Translations under genes and position numbers: made by a program
Origin: Saccharothrix sp. ALI-22-I
Lineage (GTDB): Bacteria > Actinomycetota > Actinomycetes > Mycobacteriales > Pseudonocardiaceae
Assembly: GCF_001984175.1 (NCBI RefSeq)
Contig: NZ_MTQP01000041.1
Location: 1-64,000, forward strand
Length of the DNA stretch: 64,000 nucleotides
Direction of reading: 5' to 3'
Shown: positions 31,787 to 45,576 of the stretch, one piece after another
Numbering within the stretch: position 1 is the first letter of the stretch
Layout of the letters: every line of letters begins with the position of its first letter
Notes under the pieces: model-generated
Databases searched by the model: none
What the model was told of the DNA's origin: nothing
What the model saw: only the letters and a program-made list of their open reading frames with translations

Positions 31787-32383
31787 TCAGCGTCCCGTGC
31801 TCAAGGCCGCGAACGCCTCGTCGACCAGCGTCCGAAGATCTTCGGTGCCGTCACCGTCGACCCATGCGGTCAGTGCGGTGATGAGCGCGGCGGTGGCTGC
31901 TGCGGCGATGACCCTCAGGCGGAGGTCGACGGGTCGCTGCTCGCGGTCGGCCAGTGCCTGGGCCAGGAGGGATTGTGTGGTGGCGGTGTTGCGCCATTGG
32001 CGGGCGCGCAGGGCGGGGGTGGTGACGACCAGCCGGGTTCGGGTGTAGACGGCGTCGCGGTCGGTGGCGAGCACGGCGTCCAGGCCGGTGTGCAGTGCGG
32101 CGTGCAGAGCGGTCAGCGGGCTTTCGCCGGCCGGTCGGTTGCGGACCAGTTCGGCGATGAGCGGGTCGTAGTCGTCGTCCTCGACCACGGCTTCCTTGGT
32201 GGGGAAGTAGCGGAAGAACGTCATGTGGGACACGCCCGCGGCGGCGGCGATCTCCTCCACGGTGGTCTCGTCGTAGCCCTTGCTCAGGAACAGCCGCAAC
32301 GCGTGGTCCTGGATCGCACGGCGGGTGCGCGCCTTGCGCTGCTCACGCAGCCCGCCGGCGGGCTTGGTCTGGTCCGGTGTCAC
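31787..32383 (-). CDS. TetR-family regulator
   Basis: 198 residues. N-terminal HTH (about 15-62): RTRRAIQDHALRLFLSKGYD, VEEIAAAAGVSHMTFFRYFP. The C-terminal ligand domain resembles the AcrR-like actinomycete TetR type. It overlaps the end of the FAD monooxygenase gene by four bases, so the two share one mRNA and the regulator probably controls its own operon at the palindrome upstream of the monooxygenase. Confidence 0.9.
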   Translation of the reverse strand: MTPDQTKPAGGLREQRKARTRRAIQDHALRLFLSKGYDETTVEEIAAAAGVSHMTFFRYFPTKEAVVEDDDYDPLIAELVRNRPAGESPLTALHAALHTGLDAVLATDRDAVYTRTRLVVTTPALRARQWRNTATTQSLLAQALADREQRPVDLRLRVIAAAATAALITALTAWVDGDGTEDLRTLVDEAFAALSTGR

Positions 32384-33777
32384 CGGTCAAGCATGGCCGT
32401 CAGTGCTCGGCGCAGCGCGTCCGGCTCGGCCTTTCCGCGCCACGCGAGGTGCCCGTCGGGGCGGACGAGCAGTACCTCCTGGCCCTCGCGGTGCACTTCC
32501 CGCACGTCATCCAGCAGGTCACGTGCCACCGACGCGCACGCGTTGCCCGTCGGCGCGGCGAGCGTCCATTGGAATCCGGGGTGGCGGGCGAACTCGGCCA
32601 CCCGGTCGCCGACCCGCGGTCGTCTGCCGAAGGGGGAGCGGGCGTAACTGGTCTTGAGCTGCGAGGCCTGCTCCCAGATCAGTTTCCGCACCGGTGCCAG
32701 TCCTATGAGCGGGAACAGCACGCGGTCGCGCACCACTCGGGCGGCCGCCGATTCACCCAGTACCAGACCGGTCAGGCCGGTGGTCGAGTCGAGCACGTCG
32801 GCTGCCACCGGTCTGCGTTCGGTCTCGTAGCCGTCGAGCAGGCCGTGTCCCGCACGGCCCGAGACGACCAGGGCCAGTCGCCACGCCAGGTTCTCAGCGT
32901 CGCCCAACCCGGTGTTCATGCCCTGTCCGCCGAACGGGCTGTGGATGTGCGCGGCGTCCCCCGCCAGCAGCACCCGCCCCTGCCGGTAGGTCTCGGCCAG
33001 GCGTCGGTGGATGCGGAACACCGATGTCCACACCCACTCGTCGTCCGCACCGATTTGGAGACCGGCGTGTCGGTCGGCGGCGGCTGCCAGGAATGCCGGG
33101 ACGTCCTCGACCGCAACGCCCGGCGCGGGCGCCATGAACCGCCACACCCCGTCCGGCAGCGGGAACGCCGAGAACATCTCCTTGCCCCGCACCCACACCC
33201 CGACCGCGTCACTGGGCAACGGCAGTTCCACGCGCAGGTCACCGAGCACGAACCCCTCGACCAGCGGCACACCGGGAAACCCGATGCCGGCCGTCTTGCG
33301 CACCGCGCTGTGCGCACCGTCGCAGCCCACCACCCACTCGGCGTCCACCCGACCCGCCGAGGTGGACAACACCACGCCGTCGCCGTCCTGTCCGACACCG
33401 GTGACCTGGGTGCCCCACTCGACCCGGACGCCCAGCTCGCCGAGCCGTGCCCGCAACCGGGCCTCGACCTCGGCCTGGGACACCAGCAGTCCGGGCTGCC
33501 GCACCAGCTTCGTCGGCTGGCCGACCCGCAGCTCGCCCGCACGCCGACCACCGACGTGGATCACCACCCGGCCGATGCCAACCGACCGTTGCGGCAGATC
33601 GCCCAGGGCACCGAGCCTGCCCAGCACCTCACCGCCCCGCGGTTGCAGCCCCAACGCCCGCGACGTCGTGGCCGGCCCGGCGGCACCGTCCACCACCCGT
33701 ACCGGCACGCCCTGCGCCCGCAGCGCGCACGCCACCGCCAAGCCGGTCGGTCCCGCCCCTACTACGACAACACCCAT
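32380..33777 (-). CDS. FAD-dependent aromatic monooxygenase (PheA/TetX group)
   Basis: 465-residue group A flavoprotein. Seen: N-terminal VVVGAGPTGLAVACALRAQG (FAD ADP site), VVGCDGAHSAVRKTAGIGFP (DG motif) and VLLAGDAAHIHSPFGGQGMN (second FAD motif). The family hydroxylates phenolic, polyketide or antibiotic substrates with NAD(P)H and oxygen. No ribosome site precedes the ATG, which lies about eight bases after a good -10 hexamer, so the mRNA is probably leaderless. It is co-transcribed with its TetR regulator; a detoxification role or an oxidative tailoring role is possible. Confidence 0.88.
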   Translation of the reverse strand: MGVVVVGAGPTGLAVACALRAQGVPVRVVDGAAGPATTSRALGLQPRGGEVLGRLGALGDLPQRSVGIGRVVIHVGGRRAGELRVGQPTKLVRQPGLLVSQAEVEARLRARLGELGVRVEWGTQVTGVGQDGDGVVLSTSAGRVDAEWVVGCDGAHSAVRKTAGIGFPGVPLVEGFVLGDLRVELPLPSDAVGVWVRGKEMFSAFPLPDGVWRFMAPAPGVAVEDVPAFLAAAADRHAGLQIGADDEWVWTSVFRIHRRLAETYRQGRVLLAGDAAHIHSPFGGQGMNTGLGDAENLAWRLALVVSGRAGHGLLDGYETERRPVAADVLDSTTGLTGLVLGESAAARVVRDRVLFPLIGLAPVRKLIWEQASQLKTSYARSPFGRRPRVGDRVAEFARHPGFQWTLAAPTGNACASVARDLLDDVREVHREGQEVLLVRPDGHLAWRGKAEPDALRRALTAMLDR

Positions 33778-34135: not shown

Positions 34136-34149
34136 ATCTTGCGGCTCGG

Positions 34150-34470
34150 TTGGGGGATCGGTTGGTCCGGTCGTGGTGGCGTGAGCTGTCGGGCTTGGTG
34201 TGGTCGGCGGTGGTTGTAGTGGGAGACGTAGCGGTCCAGCACTGCTTTCAAGTGGTGTTCGTTGATGATGAGCGGCGGTCGGTGGCTTCGCGTCTGATGG
34301 TGCCGACGAATCGTTCGGCGTAGCAGTTGGCTCGTGGGCAGCGTGGTGGGATCTTCACGACTTGGATGCCGGTGTCGGCGAGGACGGCGTCGAACGAGGT
34401 GGTGAACTGCCCGGCCCGGTCGCGGATCAGGAACCGGAAGTCTTCGGTCCGGTCGTCGACCTCAGCCGGG
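34150..34470 (-). pseudogene. integrase-core transposase C-terminal remnant (IS481-like)
   Basis: Minus-strand reading DRTEDFRFLIRDRAGQFTTS, IQVVKIPPRCPRANCYAERF (catalytic Glu region), FVGTIRREATDR; a one-base frameshift follows, then HHLKAVLDRYVSHYNHRRPH. The catalytic domain is partial and frameshifted. A 34-base stretch (34203-34236) is identical to 43058-43091, so two copies of the same element have decayed in this window. Confidence 0.7.
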
Positions 34471-34635
34471 CGGCCGGCGGCACGAACAAGGGGATGGGGC
34501 GCGTGGTCACGACAGCACCACCGATCCGGGTGGCTGGGATTCCAGCCGCTGTGGTGGAGACTGGCGCGCCGTTAACACTGGTAGGACGGACATCGATCAC
34601 CCTTCGTGAAAGTCCGCCCTCTCGGAACATCAAAA

Positions 34636-34671
34636 CCCCACGGAGGGTAACTGTCGTTACTCTCCGTGGGG
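34636..34671 (-). terminator. intrinsic terminator of the AUDH-type operon
   Basis: A 16-bp stem with one mismatch (CCCCACGGAGGGTAAC pairing with GTTACTCTCCGTGGGG, loop TGTC). Read on the minus strand it is followed by TTTT. The TAA stop of the last operon gene lies inside the stem, so transcription should end right after the propeller gene. Confidence 0.8.
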
Positions 34672-35928
34672 TAGATCCGGCTGGAGTTTCAGCCGAAATG
34701 GTGTCCGAGAGGGTTCCGTCCGGTTGCGGTGCAGGACGATCTTCGCGTCGTCCGCCACGTAGTAGTTCTGCACCGAGTAGGCGATCGTGGCGAAGTCGAG
34801 CGTGCCGTCACCGTTGAAGTCGCCCGTCGCGATGCGCGCCACCGAATCGTCCGCCACCCGCCACTTGGCCCAGACGCCGTTCGCGGCGTCGATCGCCTTG
34901 TAGTACATCACGCCCTGCCACGGCCACGGCCCGCGCAACGCCACCAGGAACTCGTCGTCACCGTCACCGTCGAAGTCGGCGCACACGACCTGGTGACCCG
35001 GCCCCTCGCCGTTCTCGTTGGGGTCGCCGAAGACGTCGAGCAGCGTCCGGTTCCAGCCCGAGTCGTCCTTCGTGTACACGGCGACCGTGTTGCCGTGGAA
35101 GGGCTCGATCGCCGCGACGTAGGCCATCGGGTCGTCACCCAGGCGGCCCGCGTCCAAGTCCCCGGAGCCGCGGAAACCCGTCCGCGCGAACTGAGTGCGC
35201 TCACCCTCGCCGATCAGCGTCGACCTCCACTCACCCGCCTCGTCGTCGTAGCGCAGCCACGTGACGCCCTCGTCGGAGGCGAACAGCAGCGAATCGCGGT
35301 CCGAGTCGGGGATCAGGCCCTTCTTCTTCTCGGCGCCGTGGATCATCCGGAAGTGGCTGTCGTCGATGACGGTCATCGGCCACTCGGTCGCGTTCCGCAC
35401 GTCATCCGGTTCGGTGAACAGCACCACCGGGAGCACCGCGTGCACGTCGGCCTTCGCCACGATCGGCACGCCCACGATCTCCAGACGGTCGGTTCGGGTG
35501 AAGTGGCCGGCGCGCAGCCGGTGCATGCCGGTCGCGCGACCGACGTAGTGCCTGCGCCAGCGGTCGTCGTGCTTGTCCGCCGCGCCGGGGTGCTCGATCC
35601 AGTCAATCTTGCCGCCGGCCTCGTCCGGGTCGACGATGGTGCCGATCGGGCCGTACAGCTCGTAGCAGACGATGGCATCCGGCGTGCCGTCGCCGGTGAT
35701 GTCGGCCCAGTCCGCGCCGACGGGCATCCGGAAGCCGTCGGCCATCAGCCGCTTCGGCCAGCTCGGCGCGTTCTGGTACCAGTAGATCTCGCCCAGCCGC
35801 AGGCCGTAGCCGAACAGGTCGGGCCGGCCGTCGCCGTCGATGTCGGGTGCTTCGAGCCAGTAGCCGTCGCGCAGCTGGTCGGCGACGATCTCGCCTTCGA
35901 AGTGCGGTGCGATGATGCGGTCGTGCAC
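34657..35928 (-). CDS. seven-bladed propeller protein homologous to the catalytic part of aldos-2-ulose dehydratase (AUDH)
   Basis: About 423 residues of FG-GAP/VCBS-like blades with calcium-loop motifs DIDGDGRPDLFGYG, DFDGDGDDEFLVALRG and DFNGDGTLDFATIAYS. Beyond generic repeats it shares specific blocks with fungal AUDH as I recall that sequence: RDGYWLEAPDIDG, GMHRLRAGHFTRTDRLEIVG, EPFHGNTVAVYTKD, HQVVCADFDGDGDDEFLVA. AUDH converts 1,5-anhydro-D-fructose (or glucosone) through ascopyrone M to microthecin (or cortalcerone). No signal peptide, so probably cytoplasmic. GTG at 35928 chosen because AGGAGG lies eight bases upstream; GTG at 35937 overlaps that site. Last gene of the operon. Confidence 0.75.
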   Translation of the reverse strand: MHDRIIAPHFEGEIVADQLRDGYWLEAPDIDGDGRPDLFGYGLRLGEIYWYQNAPSWPKRLMADGFRMPVGADWADITGDGTPDAIVCYELYGPIGTIVDPDEAGGKIDWIEHPGAADKHDDRWRRHYVGRATGMHRLRAGHFTRTDRLEIVGVPIVAKADVHAVLPVVLFTEPDDVRNATEWPMTVIDDSHFRMIHGAEKKKGLIPDSDRDSLLFASDEGVTWLRYDDEAGEWRSTLIGEGERTQFARTGFRGSGDLDAGRLGDDPMAYVAAIEPFHGNTVAVYTKDDSGWNRTLLDVFGDPNENGEGPGHQVVCADFDGDGDDEFLVALRGPWPWQGVMYYKAIDAANGVWAKWRVADDSVARIATGDFNGDGTLDFATIAYSVQNYYVADDAKIVLHRNRTEPSRTPFRLKLQPDLPHGE

Positions 35929-35953
35929 GTCGATCACCTCCTGGTGCGCCGGT

Positions 35954-36670
35954 TCAGGGCAGCTGGTGGTACTCCAGGGCGAGCCACACGCAGTCGGTGT
36001 CGGCCCGGTACTGGTGCCACGGGTAGACGAACGCGCCCTCGTCGGTCCGGCTGCAGAACGGCACGGGCGTCGTGTAGCCCTCGCCCATCACCACGTCCTC
36101 GACCAGCGTGGCGTGGTCTTGGGCGCGGAACTTCTGCATCCGGCCCACGCCGACCACCTGCGTGTGGACCTCGATGAAGTCGTGCAGCACGTGGATGCCG
36201 CAGTCGGTGCCGGCGGGCGCGAACCACAGGTTGGCCCGCAGCTCGAACGCGCGCGGCCCGGACGGCCCGCCGCCCAGAGCCTGGCCGGGGTCGAACTCGA
36301 CCACGTCGAGCACGTCCTGCGGTCCCCTCCACAGCGGTGTGTCGACCGGGAACTGCGTGCCGGGGCCGACGTGCTCGCCCACGACGTCACCCAGCCGCAC
36401 CCACTCCGGCTCGTCGACGATCTCCGCTGTCGGTGCCGCCTCGTCGTCGAGCTTGAGCACCAGCAGCGACTCCGCCCGCGAGACGGTCGTGTCGACCAGG
36501 ATCGTGGAGGAGAACGCCGGGAGCGGTCGGCGCGGTTCCAGGGCCGTCCACGCGGGCGTCGTGCCGGTGTTGACCACGATCGCCCGGCCTTCGACGTGGA
36601 GGTCGCGGGCGGCGCGCACGTACTCGCCGCTCACGAAGCGGTTCTCGGTCAGGGGCGCGGTGGTGGTCAT
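35954..36670 (-). CDS. cupin-domain protein homologous to the C-terminal cupin part of AUDH
   Basis: 238 residues, two-half jelly-roll. Seen: metal-site-like HVLHDFIEVHTQVVGVGRMQ around residues 160-180 and closing FVYPWHQYRADTDCVWLALE. These correspond to the HNHVEAS...EIHACI and YPWHAWLAG...VWVAFEF blocks of the fungal AUDH cupin region as I recall it. In the fungus, propeller and cupins form one chain; here they are separate adjacent genes, 16-25 bases apart depending on the start chosen for the propeller. Its ATG overlaps the epimerase stop (ATGA). An isomerase or dehydratase function is inferred by homology only. Confidence 0.7.
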   Translation of the reverse strand: MTTTAPLTENRFVSGEYVRAARDLHVEGRAIVVNTGTTPAWTALEPRRPLPAFSSTILVDTTVSRAESLLVLKLDDEAAPTAEIVDEPEWVRLGDVVGEHVGPGTQFPVDTPLWRGPQDVLDVVEFDPGQALGGGPSGPRAFELRANLWFAPAGTDCGIHVLHDFIEVHTQVVGVGRMQKFRAQDHATLVEDVVMGEGYTTPVPFCSRTDEGAFVYPWHQYRADTDCVWLALEYHQLP

Positions 36671-37836
36671 ACCGCCACCAGGTCGGCCGTGGGTGTGCTG
36701 CCCGGCACGAACGGCTGCACGGCCGGGCCATCGCCGAAGTAGTGCGCCAGGGCCGCGATCGTGCGCACGCTCGCGTGCCCGTCGCCGTACGGGTTGGCGG
36801 CGTCGGCCATCCGCTCGTAGTGCACCGGGTCGCGCAGCAGCCCGATGACCGAGTCGGCCACGCCCTCGGTGGTGCGGCCGACGAGCTGCGCGGTGCCGAC
36901 CGCGATCGCCTCGGGCCGTTCGGTGATGTCCCGCAGCACCAGGGTGGGTTTGCCCAGTGCCGGCCCCTCCTCCTCGGCGCCGCTGCTGTCGGACACGATG
37001 ATGTCCGCGCGCCGCATGAGCTTGGTGAAGCATAAGTAGGGCAACGGGTCGACGATGGTCAGGTTGGGCAGGTCCGCGATCTCCGGCAGCAGCGCGTCGC
37101 GCACGGCCGGGTTGCGATGCAGCGGCACGACCACCCGCACGTCCTGCTCCTGCGCGATCCGGCGCAGCGCCGCGCCGATCTGGGGCAGCATCCGCCACGA
37201 CTCGCGCCGGTGCGCGGACGCCAGCACGATCCGGCGGGGGTCGTCGTCGAGGTCGGCCAGCGCGCGGGCGCCGTAGTCCGCCGCGGACGTGCCCGCCCAC
37301 CGCAGCGCGTCGATCACCGTGTTGCCGGTGACCACGATCCGGTCCGGCCGCACACCCTCGCGGATGAGGTTGGCGCCGCTCACGGGTGTCGGCGCCAGGT
37401 GCAGGTCGGAGATCTGCGCGACGAGCCGGCGGTTGGCCTCCTCAGGGAACGGGGAGTGCAGGTCGCCGCTGCGCAGGCCGGCCTCGACGTGCACCACCGG
37501 GATCTGCTGGTGGAAGGCGCCGATCGCGCCCGCCAGGGTGGTCGCGGTATCGCCGTGCACCATGGCCGCGTCGCAGCCCAACCCGGGTAAGACCTTCTCC
37601 AGTCCTTCGATGACCTTGTGGGTGACCCGCGAGAGGGTCTGCTTGTCGGACATGACGGCCAGGTCGATGTCGGGCCGCAGGTCGAACGCGGCCAGCGTGT
37701 CGTCCAGCATCTGCCGGTGCTGACCGGTGGACACGACCACGGGCCGGAAGCGCGGGTCGGCGTCCAGCGCCCGGATCACGGGCGCGAACTTGATCGCTTC
37801 GGGACGGGTTCCGAGGATTACGGCTACCGATCGCAT
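36667..37836 (-). CDS. wecB: non-hydrolysing UDP-N-acetylglucosamine 2-epimerase
   Basis: 389 residues, normal length for WecB/MnaA. Seen: VAVILGTRPEAIKFAPVIRA, VVVSTGQHRQMLDDTL, MVHGDTATTLAGAIGAFHQQ, VVHVEAGLRSGDLHSPFPEE, VLASAHRRESW, VVPLHRNPAVRDALL, VSDSSGAEEEGPALGKPTLV, LRDITERPEA. The enzyme makes UDP-ManNAc through a bound 2-acetamidoglucal plus UDP intermediate. There is no UDP-ManNAc dehydrogenase or glycosyltransferase alongside it, so cell-wall or capsule synthesis is not suggested by context. Overlaps the cupin gene by four bases; 98 bases separate it from the FAD oxidase gene. Confidence 0.9.
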   Translation of the reverse strand: MRSVAVILGTRPEAIKFAPVIRALDADPRFRPVVVSTGQHRQMLDDTLAAFDLRPDIDLAVMSDKQTLSRVTHKVIEGLEKVLPGLGCDAAMVHGDTATTLAGAIGAFHQQIPVVHVEAGLRSGDLHSPFPEEANRRLVAQISDLHLAPTPVSGANLIREGVRPDRIVVTGNTVIDALRWAGTSAADYGARALADLDDDPRRIVLASAHRRESWRMLPQIGAALRRIAQEQDVRVVVPLHRNPAVRDALLPEIADLPNLTIVDPLPYLCFTKLMRRADIIVSDSSGAEEEGPALGKPTLVLRDITERPEAIAVGTAQLVGRTTEGVADSVIGLLRDPVHYERMADAANPYGDGHASVRTIAALAHYFGDGPAVQPFVPGSTPTADLVAV

Positions 37837-37934
37837 GGGAGGAAACCCCTCTCTTCGATGTGGTGGGAGCGTGTGGACAGCACGTGCCCGACCGCCCCGG
37901 GTGAGGGCGACGACGGGTGTGGGGAGTTCCGGGG

Positions 37935-39605
37935 TCAGCGCGCGGGTTGGATCGACAGCGCGTGCCGGAAGTGGTCGGCCGGATCCCAGCGTTTCTTGAC
38001 CTGCTGCAGCCGCGGGTAGTTCTCCCGGTAGTACAACGCCTGCCAGGGCACGCCGGAGCGGTTGAACTCCGGTGCGGCGACGTCGTTGTCCGGGTAGTTG
38101 ATGTAGCAACCGTCGGCGTGGTCGCCGGGCACGGGCACGCCGCCGGTCGCGGCGAACATGCCGCGGTAGGTCTCCCGCGCCCAGGTGATGTGGAAGTCGT
38201 CGTCCTCGGCGGAGTTCCAGAAGGTCTGCAGGCACATCTTGAACGCTGAGTCCCGCTGGGCGTGCGCGGTCGCGCCGCGCTCGGGCGCGTTCACCCGGCC
38301 ACCGAAGGACAGCAGCACCAGCATGGTGTCCGGGTTGGTGAAGTCCTCGCCGGTCATGCCGCGGTAGAGCGCCGCGCACTGCTCGTCGTCGAACGCCTTG
38401 CGCAGGTAGGCGGACTTGTGCACCCCGCGCGAGGTGGGATCGGTGATGGTGGGGTTGTTGGTGCCCACCAGACGGGCGGCCTGCAACCACGGCAGTTCGC
38501 GTGGCTCTCCCAGGTCGATCGGGAGCTTCCCCAGTTCACCGATCGGGGCCTTCGCCGGCCGCGGTCGGGCCGCCACGCCCTCGGTGATGGCGGCGAGGTA
38601 GTCGTCGAGCATCCGGCGGGCGTTCGGCGCGGTCGCGTCCACCTGGGTGAACATGCCCATGCTGCCGTGCGCGCGGTGGCTGACGTTGAACAGGCTGGAC
38701 ACCGCGGTGGTCGCGGCACCGGGGTCGGCGTTACGCTCATGCCACGTGCCGAAGTTCTGCACGAGCCGGGTGAACGACGCCTGGTCCAGTTCGTCCCAGT
38801 CGAACTCGACCGCGCTGACGAGCACGGTGGAGGGCGGGGACACGAGTTGGTCCGCGGGGTCCGTGTCGTGCGCGTCCGGGGAGCGGAACCAGTACCGGGT
38901 GATCACGCCGAAGTTGCCGCCGCCCGCGCCGGTGTGGCCCCACCAGAGGTCGCGGTTGGGGTCGTCGGCCTCGCGGGTCGCCACGACGGTCCGCACGCCG
39001 CCGCGCTCGTCGACCGTCACGACCTCCACCGCGTAGAGGTGATCGACGGTCAGGCCGTGCGCTCGGGAGAGCAGTCCGTACCCGCCGCCCGCGACGTGGC
39101 CCGCGATGCCGACGCTCCAGCAGACGCCGCCGGGGATCGTGACGTGCCAACCCTTGTACAGCGCCTCGTAGACGTTGGTGAGCCGCGCCCCGGACTGCAC
39201 GCAGAACGCGCGCATCCGCTCGTCGTAGTACACGTCGGTCATCGCCGAGACGTCGAGGATGACCTCGATCTCCGGGTTGCAGACGAAATCTGAGAAGCAG
39301 TGGCCGCCACCGCGCACGGACACCCGCTTGCCGGCCCGGACGGCGTCGCGCACGGCGTTCTCCGCGTCAGCGGTGGAGGTGATCAGCTTGACGTACTCGG
39401 GACGGGCGACGAACCGCTGGTTGTTGCCCGTCATCAGGTCGGGGTAGCGGGGGTCGCCCGGCCGCACGACCGGACCGGGCGGGACGGCCGTCGCCGTCCC
39501 CGGCTCGGCAACGGCCGTTGGGATCGTGGTCCCTGCCGCCGCACCTCCCAAGAGTGCGGCGGCGCCGGATAAGACGGACCGGCGCGTCAAGCCGTTGTCG
39601 CGCAT
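37935..39605 (-). CDS. secreted berberine-bridge-type FAD oxidase (bicovalent flavin)
   Basis: 556 residues. Twin-arginine signal LTRRSVLSGAAALLGGAAAG. FAD-binding PCMH domain (about 65-240): the 8-alpha-histidyl site in SVRGGGHCFSDF and the 6-S-cysteinyl site in VTIPGGVCWSVGIAGHVAGG, then GAGGGNFGVITRYWF. C-terminal BBE motif YYRENYPRLQQVKKRWDPAD. Relatives include glucooligosaccharide oxidases and antibiotic-tailoring oxidases such as AknOx and TamL, which oxidise sugar or ketol hydroxyls with oxygen, making hydrogen peroxide. It lies between the MFS exporter and the epimerase genes on the same strand, so it may oxidise the exported product outside the membrane. Confidence 0.88.
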   Translation of the reverse strand: MRDNGLTRRSVLSGAAALLGGAAAGTTIPTAVAEPGTATAVPPGPVVRPGDPRYPDLMTGNNQRFVARPEYVKLITSTADAENAVRDAVRAGKRVSVRGGGHCFSDFVCNPEIEVILDVSAMTDVYYDERMRAFCVQSGARLTNVYEALYKGWHVTIPGGVCWSVGIAGHVAGGGYGLLSRAHGLTVDHLYAVEVVTVDERGGVRTVVATREADDPNRDLWWGHTGAGGGNFGVITRYWFRSPDAHDTDPADQLVSPPSTVLVSAVEFDWDELDQASFTRLVQNFGTWHERNADPGAATTAVSSLFNVSHRAHGSMGMFTQVDATAPNARRMLDDYLAAITEGVAARPRPAKAPIGELGKLPIDLGEPRELPWLQAARLVGTNNPTITDPTSRGVHKSAYLRKAFDDEQCAALYRGMTGEDFTNPDTMLVLLSFGGRVNAPERGATAHAQRDSAFKMCLQTFWNSAEDDDFHITWARETYRGMFAATGGVPVPGDHADGCYINYPDNDVAAPEFNRSGVPWQALYYRENYPRLQQVKKRWDPADHFRHALSIQPAR

Positions 39606-39642
39606 GTCTGCTCCAATCTCCCGTTTCTTTCGTCCTTCGTGG

Positions 39643-40812
39643 TCAGATGTGCACCGGCACCGGTGCGGCGGCCTTGCGCCGGTCGAGTCGGTGCGCGGTG
39701 GCGGCCACCGCGAGCCCCGACAGGGCGAGCAGCCCGCCGACCCAGTTCGGCGCGGTGTAGCCCAGCCCGCCGTCGATGGCCGCTCCGCCGAGCCACGCGC
39801 CCAGGGCGTTGCCCAGGTTGAACGAGGCGATGTTCGCCGCCGAGGCCAGCGCGGGCGCGCCCTCGGCCTGCTGCATGACGCGCATCTGCAGCGGTGGCAC
39901 GGTGGCGAAACCGGCCGCGCCGAACAGCAGGATGGTGACGGCCGCCTGCCATTGGCTGTGCGCGGTGAACACGAACGCGAACAGCACCGCCGCGAGCAGC
40001 GAGAGGATCACGAACAGGCTGGGCATCACGGCCCGGTCGGCTGCCCGTCCGCCCACCACGTTGCCCACGCACAGGCCCGCGCCGAACAGGATCAGCAACC
40101 AGGTCACCGCGCCGGTGGAGAACCCGGCGACCTCCGTCATCATCGGCGCTATGTAGGTGAACGACGCGAACACGCCCGCGAAGCCCAACGTGGTCATCGC
40201 CAGCGCCAGCCACACCTGGGGCCGGGCGAACGCCGCCAGCTCGCGGCGCAGGCCGCTGTCCGGTCGCGGGGTGGCGGGCACCAGCGCGGCGATACCGATC
40301 AGGCCCAGCACGCCGAGCGCGGTCACCGCCCAGAACGTCGAGCGCCAACCCCACTCCTGGCCCAGCGCGGTGCCCAGCGGGACGCCCAGCACGTTGGACA
40401 CGGTCAACCCGGTGAACATCATGGCGATGGCGCTGGCCTTGCGGTGCGGCGCCACGAGTTCGGCGGCCACCACCGACCCGATGCCGAAGAAAGCGCCGTG
40501 GCACAGCGCCGCGACCGCCCGGCCGACCATCAGCAGCGCGTAGTCGTCCGCGATCGCGCACAGCGCGTTGCCCGCGATGAACACGGCCATCAGGATCATC
40601 AGCACGGCCTTGCGGGGCAGTCGCGCGCCGGCCATGGTGACCAGCGGCGCGCCCACCACGACGCTCAACGCGTAGCCGGAGACGAGCAGCCCGGCGGAGG
40701 GGATGGACACGCCCAGGTCGGCGGCCACCTCGGGGAGCAACCCGACGATGACGAACTCGGTGGTGCCGATCCCGAACGCGCCGACGGCGAGGGCGATCAG
40801 TGCGAGCGGCAT
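39643..40812 (-). CDS. MFS drug/sugar exporter (DHA1, AraJ/NepI-like)
   Basis: 389 residues with twelve hydrophobic segments, beginning PLALIALAVGAFGIGTTEFV and including the conserved GRAVAALCHGAFFGIGSVVA and NVLGVPLGTALGQEWGWRST motifs of the chloramphenicol-resistance-like DHA1 group. The family exports sugars, nucleosides or drugs by proton antiport. It sits eight bases after the SDR stop and 37 bases before the oxidase start, inside the biosynthetic operon; product export is the likely role. Confidence 0.88.
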   Translation of the reverse strand: MPLALIALAVGAFGIGTTEFVIVGLLPEVAADLGVSIPSAGLLVSGYALSVVVGAPLVTMAGARLPRKAVLMILMAVFIAGNALCAIADDYALLMVGRAVAALCHGAFFGIGSVVAAELVAPHRKASAIAMMFTGLTVSNVLGVPLGTALGQEWGWRSTFWAVTALGVLGLIGIAALVPATPRPDSGLRRELAAFARPQVWLALAMTTLGFAGVFASFTYIAPMMTEVAGFSTGAVTWLLILFGAGLCVGNVVGGRAADRAVMPSLFVILSLLAAVLFAFVFTAHSQWQAAVTILLFGAAGFATVPPLQMRVMQQAEGAPALASAANIASFNLGNALGAWLGGAAIDGGLGYTAPNWVGGLLALSGLAVAATAHRLDRRKAAAPVPVHI

Positions 40813-40820
40813 GGTGGACC

Positions 40821-41582
40821 TCAAACCTGGCGCAGGGCGCCGCCGTCGACGGCCCACTCGGCGCCGGTGATCTGGCTCGCCAGGGGCGAGAGCAGGAAGG
40901 CGATGACGCGGGCGACGTCGTCGGGCGTGCCGAGCCGGCCGGTGGGCAGGTTGCGGACCTCGCGTACGAAGTGCTCGACCGCCTCCTCGACGGGCAGGTC
41001 GAACTGCGTCGACAGCTGTTCGGCGAACCCGCCCGGCTCGTCCCACAGCCGGGTGCGGGTGGGGCCGGGCGACACCACGTTGGAGCGCACGCCCCGGTCG
41101 CCGAACTCGCCGGCGATCACCTTGGACACGGTCAGCATCGCGGTCTTCGACGCGGCGTAGTCGACGATCGACTTGTCCGGGAAGCGGGCCGCCTCGCTGG
41201 CAACGTGCACGATGCTGCCGCCGCCGGTGTCCAGCAGTGCCGGGATGGCCACGCGGCTCATCCGCACGGCGGAGAACAGGTTGAGCTCGAAGGTCCTCAG
41301 CCACTGCTCGTCGGTGAAGTCGAGGAACCCGCTGCGGGAGTCCAGGCCGCCCACGTTGTTCACCAGGCCGTCGAGCCGGCCGTGTCGTTCGAGCACGGTG
41401 TCCACGACCGATCGCGCGGCGCCGGGATCGGTGAGGTCGGCGGCGATGCCGCCGTCCAGTGGCTTGCGGGCCACGCCGACGGCGGTCGCGCCCTCATCGG
41501 CGAGCAGTCGGACCACGGCCTCGCCGATACCGGCGGAGGCACCGGTCACCACGAAGACCTTGCCGGTCAGTTCCAGGTCCAC
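40821..41582 (-). CDS. short-chain dehydrogenase/reductase
   Basis: 253 residues. Seen: VFVVTGASAGIGEAVVRLL (cofactor), LVNNVGG in place of the usual NNAG, SIVHVASEAARFP with catalytic Ser, YAASKTA active site, and AVDGGALRQV at the end. GTG at 41582 is chosen for GGAGGAGG seven bases upstream; an upstream start at 41600 lacks one. First gene of the leftward operon and divergent from the lysR gene. It probably reduces or oxidises a carbonyl in the pathway; substrate unknown. Confidence 0.87.
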   Translation of the reverse strand: MDLELTGKVFVVTGASAGIGEAVVRLLADEGATAVGVARKPLDGGIAADLTDPGAARSVVDTVLERHGRLDGLVNNVGGLDSRSGFLDFTDEQWLRTFELNLFSAVRMSRVAIPALLDTGGGSIVHVASEAARFPDKSIVDYAASKTAMLTVSKVIAGEFGDRGVRSNVVSPGPTRTRLWDEPGGFAEQLSTQFDLPVEEAVEHFVREVRNLPTGRLGTPDDVARVIAFLLSPLASQITGAEWAVDGGALRQV

Positions 41583-41640
41583 GGCAAGCCCTCCTCCCAA
41601 GTAGTCGGTGTGTCACCCACTATTGCGAATCCGGATGAGA

Positions 41641-41674
41641 AATTCGAAGTAGAATTACTGTTCGCTGGTATAAA
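41641..41674. promoter_or_regulatory. LysR-type box and lysR promoter
   Basis: AATTC-GAAGTA-GAATT (41641-41656) is a perfect inverted repeat with 5-bp arms, fitting a T-N11-A-type LysR binding site in the short divergent region. TATAAA (41669-41674) is an obvious -10 for the lysR gene, only eight bases before its ATG and without a ribosome site, suggesting a leaderless message. Confidence 0.55.
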
Positions 41675-41682
41675 ATGGGCTT

Positions 41683-42594
41683 ATGTTTACCCTGCGTCAG
41701 TTGGAAAGCCTCACCGCAATCGTCGACGAGGGCTCGTTCACCGCCGCGGCGGACGTGCTCGGTGTGACGCAGCCCGCTCTTTCCCATCAGATCCGTCCAC
41801 TCGAACGGGCTATCGGGCTCCAGGTTTTGGAGCGCTTACCCCGCTCGGTCCGACTGACCACGGCGGGCCGAGCCTTCCTGCCCCACGCCCGTGCCGCCCT
41901 GGGCGCGGTCGACCGCGGTTCCCGCGCCGCGCGCCAGGCGGTCCAGTTGGAGGCGGCCGAACTGGGCGTGGCGACGATCTACTCGATCAGCCTCGGCGTG
42001 CTGCCGCCGGTGCTGCGCGCGTGGCGCCAGCAGCACGGGAGCACCCAGGTCCGGCTGTTCGAACACCGGCACGCGGACAACCTGCGCAACGCCATGCTGG
42101 CGGGCCAGGCCGATCTGGCGATCGGCCCCGTTCCGGTGGACTGGTCAGGTCAGATCGTGCCGCTGGGGGAGGAGGAGTTCGTCGTCGTGCTGCCGTTCGA
42201 CGACCCGGACGTCGGACCGGAGGACACCACGGTCGACCTGGCCCTGCTGGCACACCGCAGCTGGGTGCACTTCGCCCCGGACAACGGCCTGGCGGCCCTG
42301 CTGGACGAGGTGTGCGCGAGGGCGGGGTTCCAGCCCAGGGTGGCCGTGCGGGCCGAGCAGACGGCCGCCGCGCCGATCCTGGCCTCGGTGGGCCTGGGCC
42401 CCACCCTCATCCCGCTCAACGTCATCCCACCGAACTTCGACGGCCGCCTGCTGCGCCCCGACCCGCCGGTGCGCCGGACGATGTCGGTGTACACGCGGCA
42501 CGGCGACGAGCCGGTGGTCAGCGCGTTCATCTCGACGCTCATCCGTACGGTGGAACTCATTCCGAACCACCTGCGCGCGGTCCTGAAGTTCTGA
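41683..42594 (+). CDS. LysR-family regulator
   Basis: 303 residues. N-terminal HTH (1-60): FTLRQLESLTAIVDEGSFTA, AADVLGVTQPALSHQIRPLE. C-terminal substrate-binding domain from about residue 90 with ELGVATIYSISLGVLPPVLR and ILASVGLGPTLIPLNVIPPN. Divergently oriented to the SDR/MFS/oxidase/epimerase/AUDH operon, with a LysR box between, so it very probably activates that operon in response to a pathway metabolite. Confidence 0.9.
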   Translation: MFTLRQLESLTAIVDEGSFTAAADVLGVTQPALSHQIRPLERAIGLQVLERLPRSVRLTTAGRAFLPHARAALGAVDRGSRAARQAVQLEAAELGVATIYSISLGVLPPVLRAWRQQHGSTQVRLFEHRHADNLRNAMLAGQADLAIGPVPVDWSGQIVPLGEEEFVVVLPFDDPDVGPEDTTVDLALLAHRSWVHFAPDNGLAALLDEVCARAGFQPRVAVRAEQTAAAPILASVGLGPTLIPLNVIPPNFDGRLLRPDPPVRRTMSVYTRHGDEPVVSAFISTLIRTVELIPNHLRAVLKF

Positions 42595-42929
42595 GCCTCG
42601 GAACCGCTCGTTCAGGGACGAAGCTTGATGGACCGAATTCCGGGCGACAATTCGCATCGGCGGCACCTGGGGGCGCGGTATGCGATGACCTCGCGCAGTC
42701 CGGGGCGAACGGTGCGTTCGACAGCCGCCTGACCGGGCGTGCGCCGGTCGGAGGTTCGGTCCGGCCGCGCACGAGGTCCGCGTCCACTTCGGCTCAGCAT
42801 GAGTTCGATGTGGCGGGTGCTGGCGAGGTGATGACGTTCAACGCCGTGGAGCGCGCCTCGACGAGTCGTCGGTTGCCTTCAACGGCGGTTGTAGGGTGCC
42901 AAAGTCGGCCACACGGTCTGATCTGGGCG

Positions 42930-43135
42930 TCAGACTGCTGCGGATTCGTACTCGTTGATCAGTCCGCTGAGGACTGGTCGGCGACGTATCGACGTGCAGC
43001 CCGGCTTCGCGATCGGGTGGTCCGGTCGTGGTGGTGCGAGTTGTCGTGTTTGGTGGGGTCGGCGGTGGTTGTAGTGGGAGACGTAGCGGTCGAGCACCGC
43101 CTGCAGGTGGTGCTCGTTGGTGGTGACTAGTTGCC
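42930..43135 (-). pseudogene. second integrase-core transposase C-terminal remnant (IS481-like)
   Basis: Minus-strand reading EHHLQAVLDRYVSHYNHRRP, HQTRQLAPPRPDHPIAKPG, then IRRRPVLSGLINEYESAAV and stop: the exact C terminus of this transposase type. It shares 34 identical bases with the remnant at 34203-34236. The adjoining region 42595-42929 shows no supported gene. Confidence 0.7.
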
Positions 43136-44588: not shown

Positions 44589-45404
44589 TCAGGAGCAGAA
44601 GATGTCGTCTTCCTCGATCGTGGCGATCGCCTGCGAGTCGGCCAACGCCGTGCCTGCGGACGGGCTGGAGAGCGTCAGCTTCACCGTCTCGTTGGCCTCG
44701 CAGAGCGTGTCGCCCTTGATGGTCACGTTCCACGTGATCGTGGGCTGCCCCAGCTGCAGCGCGACGAGCTGGTTGGAGAACGCGGTGTAGTCCGCGGACC
44801 CCGCCGTGCCGTTCGACGCGCTGACCAGCACCGTCGGCAGTGAGCCGCTCTGCTTGGGGTTGGACAGCGAGATGGTGAAGGCGCACGAGTGGGTGCCGCT
44901 GTTGCCCTCCCAGCAGGTGGTGTCGTCGATGTTCCACGTCGGCGTGCCGTCGTCGTCCAGGATCGTGCCGGTTCCGGTGTTGTCGGCCAGGTCGGTCCAC
45001 CCGCTGACCGGCGACAGGATGACCGAGAACGTCTCGTTCGCCTCGTCCAGCGCGTCGCGGTTGACCGGGACGGAGATCGTCTTCAGGGCGGAGTCGCCGG
45101 ATCCCCAGGACACGGTGCCGGAGCCCGCAGTGAGGTCCGTGTCGCCCGCCGTGCCGGCGGCGATGTCGTAGTGGACCGAGGCGGCGGTGTAGCAGCCGCC
45201 GTTCCCGTTCAGGGTGAAGACGAGGGTGGTGGTGCCCGCGCCGGTCCCCTCGTAGGCCCGGGCGTCCCCGATGCTGATGACGCGCGGGAACTCGCACGTC
45301 TGCGCGGTGACGTCCGCGCTCGCCGGCAAGGCGCCGAGCGTGAGGCCGCTCAACGCGATCGCGCCGGCCAGAGCCAGGCGTCTGTGGTGTCGGTGTCCGT
45401 TCAT
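44589..45404 (-). CDS. secreted protein with two Calx-beta domains
   Basis: 271 residues. Sec signal peptide RRLALAGAIALSGLTLGALP then ASADV. Two Calx-beta repeats follow, marked by DEANETFSVILSPVSG and CEANETVKLTLSSPSAG, each with a calcium-binding acidic end (GTILDDDG, ATIEEDD). Six cysteines probably form disulfides. A secreted calcium-binding or adhesive role is the usual guess; nothing more specific can be said. Divergent from the AfsR-like gene, with 172 bases between them. Confidence 0.8.
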   Translation of the reverse strand: MNGHRHHRRLALAGAIALSGLTLGALPASADVTAQTCEFPRVISIGDARAYEGTGAGTTTLVFTLNGNGGCYTAASVHYDIAAGTAGDTDLTAGSGTVSWGSGDSALKTISVPVNRDALDEANETFSVILSPVSGWTDLADNTGTGTILDDDGTPTWNIDDTTCWEGNSGTHSCAFTISLSNPKQSGSLPTVLVSASNGTAGSADYTAFSNQLVALQLGQPTITWNVTIKGDTLCEANETVKLTLSSPSAGTALADSQAIATIEEDDIFCS

Positions 45405-45576
45405 GGTGGTGGTCTCCCCTGGTGTTCCCGATCGCGGTGATCCGGCGATCTCCCCTTCGCGGTCGGCGTTCCGGCCGCTGGGCAAAGCTTCGGCGAACCC
45501 TGTTGTTCGAACGTGGAACGCCCGTATGGGCGACGTATAACGGCTGGTCGATCAACTAGCGTGAGGCCCTCTGGGG

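Follow-up and report, generated by a model that had tools for sequence, protein, structure and literature searches.

A bacterial operon with a split aldos-2-ulose dehydratase-like pair and its own WecB subfamily: a candidate route from UDP-glucose to an exported pyranone

The window analyzed here is a stretch of 64,000 nucleotides from Saccharothrix sp. ALI-22-I (contig NZ_MTQP01000041.1, positions 1–64,000), whose genome measures 10.3 Mb. Between 34657 and 41600 it carries six minus-strand genes that lie almost end to end. From their open reading frames (ORFs) and matches in Pfam and NCBIfam they encode, in order, a short-chain dehydrogenase/reductase (SDR), a major facilitator superfamily (MFS) exporter, a berberine-bridge-type FAD oxidase (BBE), a WecB-type relative of UDP-N-acetylglucosamine (UDP-GlcNAc) 2-epimerase, a cupin and a β-propeller. 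By sequence and structural model, the two catalytic regions of aldos-2-ulose dehydratase (AUDH) have their counterparts in the propeller and cupin, and the WecB enzymes of such clusters form a distinct subfamily coupled to this pair. A first-pass annotation of the window had suggested that the operon may make and export a pyranone-like metabolite derived from sugar. Taking sequence, models and analogy together, we put at roughly one in two the probability that the module is biosynthetic and, built around a two-subunit bacterial AUDH, would convert UDP-glucose to 1,5-anhydro-D-fructose and on to an exported pyranone. If true, this would provide a genetically tractable bacterial route to ascopyrone/microthecin-type compounds, a new bacterial way from a nucleotide sugar to 1,5-anhydro-D-fructose, an example of an epimerase turned lyase, and a function for genes that public records name "VCBS repeat-containing protein" and "hypothetical protein".

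The propeller (34657–35937, minus strand; 426 amino acids, seven predicted blades) is the proposed zinc-dependent dehydratase half. It matches the Pfam family AUDH_beta_propeller (PF22301, 2.6e-52), and its residues 10–399 match AUDH (PDB entry 4a7k) by sequence (1.4e-66). When an AlphaFold (AF2) model of the protein (pLDDT 83) was compared with the PDB using Foldseek, the three AUDH entries came out on top (TMq 0.82–0.84, with 36% identity in the best), followed by CRTAC1 at 0.62. The cupin (35954–36670, minus strand; 238 amino acids, a bicupin) is the proposed isomerase half. No significant match was found with its single sequence in Pfam, NCBIfam or the PDB, or with a profile of the cupin family in the PDB. 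Its AF2 model (pLDDT 92.5) again has AUDH as the top three matches (TMq 0.66–0.68, root-mean-square deviation 5.3–6.2), and all others are at or below 0.34 among the 50 matches listed. The Pfam model AUDH_Cupin (PF18637) is detected at E values up to 1 in 30 of 36 cupin members, with a best value of 2.2e-4 and 0.14 for the window protein; in six cupins checked singly, the match fell below the 25-bit cut-off in four and was absent in two. The cupin is therefore placed by its modeled fold and weak PF18637 matches only. The first-pass annotation had called both proteins AUDH homologues, and the structure comparison bears this out: AUDH ranks first for both folds, well ahead of the next match, and its histidines are kept.

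In AUDH, His155 is reportedly the proposed base, zinc is said to be bound in both propeller and cupin, and the two reactions are said to take place perhaps at two sites about 60 Å apart. Four invariant propeller residues (H139, H200, H281 and H315) line up with AUDH H155, H215, H295 and H337 by hand count in the alignment with 4a7k, and we take H139 to be the counterpart of the catalytic His155. H139 is invariant in the 30 rows of one alignment (30 of 45 propellers) and the 23 rows of another. In the cupin alignment (36 of 40 cupins; L006, L015, L038 and L042, in our numbering of loci, were left out), H160, H163, E167 and H219 are invariant and resemble a cupin metal set, which they may form. 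The fungal enzyme from Phanerochaete chrysosporium (4a7k, 4a7y and 4a7z) is thus similar in its propeller, its cupin fold and its His155. It differs in being one chain of 900 residues, whereas the bacterial parts come from two genes with other gene partners, and neither bacterial protein has a counterpart of the C-terminal lectin domain of the fungal enzyme. Two distant sites would make a division into two genes easy. Because the parts are separate proteins of 426 and 238 amino acids and not a single chain, we call the pair "split AUDH-like" and not AUDH proper.

Related loci were collected in a genome scan anchored on the propeller, which covered close relatives only and gave 41 loci; two plasmid loci were added. 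Counts refer to a set of 41 (39 scan loci and the two plasmids), which excludes L001–L004, L044, L047 and L048, whose propellers are lone, cut or doubtful. Near copies (L005/L006, L041/L042 and L013/L015/L025/L036) enter the counts individually, and all counts are lower bounds, given the short contigs and contig ends. Forty of the 41 loci contain WecB and cupin as well as the propeller, the exception (L017) being cut at a contig end. The BBE occurs in 35 loci; the six without it include L017 and L031, a short contig. The MFS gene is present in 33 and the SDR gene in 29. The expectation that the gene set recurs in other genomes was borne out, although most of the loci come from the scan of close relatives; BBE, SDR and MFS are less constant than WecB, cupin and propeller. 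Other recurrent genes encode a membrane acyltransferase of the acyltransferase-3 family (35/41), a DHA2-type exporter (25/41), GalU in varied positions (16/41; 15 in the main count plus a copy in L027 just outside the fetched flank), a StrR-like regulator (14/41; recorded as a streptomycin biosynthesis regulator) and, between BBE and WecB, a phosphoglucomutase/phosphomannomutase (2/41). No Pfam match was obtained for the StrR-like family, for family F12 or for four families of ORFs on the reverse strand (F14, F15, F17 and F18). The window operon and its near-twin L007 contain no GalU, acyltransferase or StrR gene, and no acyltransferase was found in the rest of the window's genome by a search that had no positive control there.

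The order of the genes also varies. In Cryobacterium and Promicromonospora it is cupin–WecB–[MFS]–propeller–BBE, and the set is carried in another phylum by Xenorhabdus and Celeribacter. At the Xenorhabdus yunnanensis locus (L034, 1–13000), MFS, GalU, WecB, cupin and propeller are the only ones present of the genes sought, and this reduced content fits a minimal pathway. By reading, transposase-like fragments lie between the cluster genes of the same locus.

The window WecB (36667–37836, minus strand; 389 amino acids) scores 403.5 bits against the equivalog model TIGR00236, for which the cut-off is 210. Catalytic residues D96, E118, E132 and H209 are invariant in all 36 cluster WecBs aligned (of 42 sequences, namely 41 loci and the window; L006, L015, L030, L038, L042 and L047 were left out). 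Nevertheless, the cluster enzymes separate from the 19 rows of other actinobacterial WecBs (18 distinct genes, one appearing twice as L050 and L069) with branch support of 100/99 and in 100% of 200 bootstrap trees. In the Thermus thermophilus enzyme the pyrophosphate is held by Ser284, Gly285 and Gly286 (PMC10622841), and this SGG motif is described as highly conserved (PMC8869731). The corresponding loop reads SSG in 36 of 36 cluster WecBs, with S285 in 38 of 38 (this comparison left out L006, L030, L038 and L047), whereas that column is glycine in all 19 ordinary rows and the literal SGG is found in 16 of them. Cluster WecBs also have T298 against valine in 19/19 of the others, and mostly G291 against alanine in 16/19. 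With WecB/MnaA and KasQ, the relative from kasugamycin biosynthesis, they share the family model and the residues of the catalytic and allosteric sites; they differ in these positions and in forming a clade of their own.

A search of 297 genomes of the host family found a cluster-type WecB, at E values up to 1e-150, in seven (the window's own included). In the same seven, the contig of this WecB also holds a strong propeller match, with the matched stretches 1.0–1.1 kb apart, and one further genome has a divergent propeller only. All six new WecBs have SSG. This co-occurrence gives a Fisher p value of 2.7e-14 with kinship ignored; the limit of 1e-150 was set after ordinary WecBs had reached 2.4e-146, and some of these genomes are probably loci of the propeller scan (e.g., G814 and L028), which makes the reciprocal test not wholly independent. 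Together these comparisons show, at the level of sequence, that the cluster WecB is a distinct subfamily coupled to the propeller and cupin. They also bear on another view of the gene, that it is an ordinary epimerase making UDP-N-acetylmannosamine (UDP-ManNAc) for a glycoconjugate, while the split AUDH draws on an unrelated sugar from general metabolism. The TIGR00236 score is what such an enzyme would give. However, neither a glycosyltransferase nor a UDP-ManNAc dehydrogenase was recognized among the 20 families common to at least three loci (Pfam on representatives), so that no downstream user of UDP-ManNAc is apparent there, and the cluster WecB has its own clade, an altered phosphate loop and a distribution that follows the AUDH propeller from one genome to the next. 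We regard this explanation as improbable.

The substrates of AUDH are free sugars of the 2-keto or anhydro type, and GalU is the UDP-glucose synthase. WecB is the only recognized user of a UDP-sugar among the shared families. In the pathway that we propose, UDP-glucose would be supplied by the cluster GalU in many relatives and presumably by a housekeeping GalU in this host. The WecB-like enzyme would bind UDP-glucose and perform the first half-reaction only, the elimination of UDP across C1–C2. Its product 2-hydroxy-D-glucal, the enol of 1,5-anhydrofructose, would be released and tautomerize to 1,5-anhydro-D-fructose. Loss of the hydroxyl at C4, catalyzed by the propeller (zinc, His139), would then yield ascopyrone M, which the cupin would isomerize to microthecin or a comparable dihydropyranone. 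The SDR would adjust the oxidation level and the MFS protein export the product. Once outside, this would be oxidized by the BBE, itself exported by the twin-arginine (Tat) route, toward an oxidation level like that of kojic acid or to an active form. The membrane acyltransferase may also acylate the product in the 35 of 41 loci that encode it; the window operon lacks its gene. In its most specific form, the proposal casts the SSG-clade WecB as a UDP-glucose 1,2-lyase, an epimerase stopped halfway that opens a dedicated nucleotide-sugar route to 1,5-anhydro-D-fructose independent of GH31 glucan lyases and feeds the split AUDH in a horizontally spread module secreting a microthecin- or kojic-acid-like antibiotic finished extracellularly by the BBE; judged from sequence, we hold this tentatively, at a little under even odds.

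Several observations fit this pathway. The two cluster GalU copies tested, from L005 and L034, pass the TIGR01099 equivalog cut-off, and among ten host genomes searched, the nine with a cluster GalU (all except that of L029) hold more GalU-like matches elsewhere, those of L038 being broken pieces only. Glycogen synthase is a GT-B-type enzyme, like WecB. One glycogen synthase has been crystallized with 1,5-anhydrofructose (PMC11046441), and the enol–keto step to this sugar is described for glucan lyase (PMC12441222). Release of a glycal is already known for the WecB fold: KasQ accumulates 2-acetamidoglucal and UDP (PMC8869731), and the released glycal/UDP pair is reported to be thermodynamically favored (PMC11464976).

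Other observations weigh against it. Twenty-five of the 41 loci (some of them short contigs) showed no GalU, and neither did the window operon. KasQ binds UDP-glucose but did not convert it to 2-hydroxyglucal (PMC8869731). Wherever they can be mapped by motif, residues of both the catalytic and the allosteric site of UDP-GlcNAc epimerase are kept in the cluster WecBs, no sequence feature shows a changed substrate, and the TIGR00236 score is far over its cut-off. An N-acetylhexosamine oxidase is among the relatives of the BBE, and two AUDH propellers, a second copy in this genome (L048) and one in Streptomyces harenosi (L044), have no WecB nearby. In general, every cell makes UDP-GlcNAc, so the absence of supply genes for it proves little.

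The same lyase logic could instead apply to UDP-GlcNAc, with 2-acetamidoglucal released and, as an aza-analogue, dehydrated by the split AUDH to an acetamido-pyranone. The retained epimerase residues, the release of this very glycal by KasQ, the favorable energetics of the glycal/UDP pair and the N-acetyl-D-hexosamine oxidase (7zzk, 4.6e-79) among the BBE relatives all agree with that substrate. It sits poorly with AUDH, which uses 2-keto sugars, and no deacetylase was recognized in the shared families. Moreover, the supply genes that recur are GalU and phosphoglucomutase/phosphomannomutase and not known UDP-GlcNAc genes. We consider UDP-GlcNAc an unlikely substrate, although the likeliest alternative to UDP-glucose.

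The BBE (37935–39605, minus strand; 556 amino acids; PF01565 and PF08031), a proposed extracellular tailoring oxidase, has its nearest solved relatives in TamL, 2wdw (a putative hexose oxidase, Dbv29), CrmK, AknOx and GilR, followed by the N-acetyl-D-hexosamine oxidase. It resembles the first five over nearly its whole length and at both flavin-linking positions, which are occupied by His102 and Cys162 in the alignments; in contrast to theirs, its setting in the window operon lacks a polyketide or peptide assembly line. The first-pass annotation had described a bicovalent FAD oxidase. The two linking residues agree with this; the solved relatives are bicovalent. A twin-arginine motif was found by reading in the window BBE and, with a strict pattern, in 27 of 35 loci. 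Among the misses, L008, L010 and L045 have an arginine pair outside the pattern, L012, L025 and L036 may have been assigned too late a start, and the starts of L037 and L038 are wrong or split. A similar pattern is absent from the propeller (0/44), cupin (0/39) and WecB (0/41), in a scan limited to this signal type. Oxidation by the BBE therefore probably follows export.

These properties of the BBE are relevant to another possible source of the AUDH substrate. Before fungal AUDH, a pyranose oxidase oxidizes sugar at C2, and the BBE rather than WecB could play this role here. Its relatives, judged from their names, oxidize sugars, and an AUDH propeller of Persicobacter adjoins a GMC oxidoreductase, a member of the pyranose oxidase superfamily. 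An oxidase with an export signal would, however, be separated from a propeller and cupin that show none in the motif scan, and its absence from six of the 41 loci (contig-cut L017 and short-contig L031 included) suggests that it is not needed for making the AUDH substrate. We give this arrangement only a slim chance.

The MFS protein (39643–40812, minus strand; 389 amino acids; PF07690, 7.7e-44) is closest to models of Cmx/CmrA and AraJ, and reaches 366 bits with NF033135, under that model's cut-off of 400. The SDR (40821–41600, minus strand, with an alternative start at 41582; 259 amino acids) matches PF13561 at 3e-47. LysR control and an SDR are, as a matter of general knowledge, common in catabolic operons, and soil Rhizobiaceae metabolize 1,5-anhydrofructose (PMC12441222); the module might on these grounds degrade or detoxify imported anhydro-sugars. 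Against this, the transporter fits drug-efflux models best, no kinase was recognized in the shared families, and the StrR-like regulator (14/41) and DHA2-type exporter (25/41) are features of antibiotic clusters. A catabolic role is thus very improbable.

Returning to the biosynthetic reading, one of the closest known systems is the anhydrofructose pathway of fungi and red algae, in which a GH31 alpha-1,4-glucan lyase and AUDH lead to microthecin. The AUDH step is common to both, as probably is the 1,5-anhydrofructose intermediate, whereas the bacterial operon has a WecB-type enzyme, often with GalU in relatives, in place of the lyase. No GH31 alpha-1,4-glucan lyase was recognized in the operon or the 20 shared families, to which this search was confined. 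The kojic acid cluster of Aspergillus (an FAD oxidoreductase, an MFS exporter and a regulator) likewise combines a sugar-derived pyranone with a flavoenzyme and MFS export; it is not known to contain AUDH or WecB. AUDH, WecB, BBE and the fungal pathway are all known. In the open-access literature covered by our search we found no account of a split bacterial AUDH tied to a WecB clade of its own, and no bacterial pathway of this kind. A review describes the ascopyrones and microthecin, compounds derived from 1,5-anhydrofructose, as antibacterial and fungal, and terms undefined the pathway by which Escherichia coli makes 1,5-anhydrofructose (PMC12441222). Leptosphaerin-type lactones and ManNAc chemistry were considered for the product and not retained. 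Echinosporin is listed beside microthecin as derived from anhydrofructose (PMC2974679), and it is described as an actinomycete compound without mention of a gene cluster (PMC8037709). We treat echinosporin as a lead to the product.

The layout of the operon is as the first-pass annotation had it, with all six genes on one strand separated by short gaps or overlaps: from SDR to propeller, gaps of 8, 37 and 98 bp, a 4-bp overlap between WecB and cupin, and a gap of 16 bp. The predicted intrinsic terminator (34635–34672, minus strand; hairpin folding and terminator scan) overlaps the propeller stop codon and consists of a long hairpin followed by T residues, with a folding energy of −31.5 kcal/mol (z = −5.86) that none of 200 shuffled sequences equaled. 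At the other end lies the divergent LysR-type regulator (41683–42594, plus strand; 303 amino acids; PF00126 and PF03466). As for the LysR box that had been proposed, a palindrome is indeed present (41622–41643), but it is weak, with 13-nt arms that are 77% complementary. The sole promoter-like site found in a sigma-70 scan is intragenic and on the opposite strand. With the window LysR as query, a match was seen in one of the 41 related loci, the near-twin L007; this regulator is not a constant part of the gene set. By Pfam, different LysR genes adjoin the MFS gene in Xenorhabdus (L034) and Celeribacter (L035).

The operon and its LysR gene are bracketed by 132-nt direct repeats (34140–34271 and 42995–43126) that are 84% identical and lie in apparent integrase-core remnants; an rve_3 match below its cut-off lies near the left repeat. 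The best match of the genome scan, Saccharothrix luteola NEAU-S10 (L007; propeller 97%), aligns with the window at 34717–42596 (94.6%), inside the two repeats, and elsewhere only over 267 bp near 51.9 kb, and L007 runs about 3.3 and 10 kb past its window match. The propeller Pfam cut-off was passed in two of 396 genomes sampled from the phylum, one of them the window's own. The module has a rare, patchy distribution and is probably mobile, spreading sideways between genomes.

AUDH propellers also occur in other settings. For the second, divergent propeller of this genome (L048, 9447–10748; about 43%), the 19 kb covered showed no match to WecB, cupin or BBE, and the neighbors give no clue to a pathway. 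Weaker-scoring propellers were seen in two more genomes of the genus (G814 and G769). The S. harenosi propeller (L044, 5651–6907; 61% identity) has no WecB or cupin match in its flanking DNA and no Pfam match in two neighboring stretches. The Persicobacter propeller is more distant (44%) and lies on a plasmid (L075, 8423–18845), where neither WecB nor cupin gave a match over about 12 kb. It is accompanied by the GMC oxidoreductase, a ferritin-like protein, a glycogen-debranching (GDE)-type glucosidase, a GH63/MGH1-like protein and a TIM-barrel protein resembling sugar isomerases. In this case the 2-keto sugar may come from an oxidase, in what may be a separate bacterial AUDH pathway, and the comparison suggests that AUDH has varying partners whose common role is to make a 2-keto sugar.

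Among minor features, the flanks of the clusters (L008–L046) contain a luciferase-like monooxygenase in 15 of the 41 loci, alpha/beta hydrolases in 21 and 9, and one family of small proteins lacking any Pfam match in 17. Elsewhere in the window, a Calx-beta repeat protein is encoded at 44589–45485 (minus strand), and a TetR gene lies beside that of an aromatic-hydroxylase-type FAD monooxygenase at 31787–33777 (minus strand).

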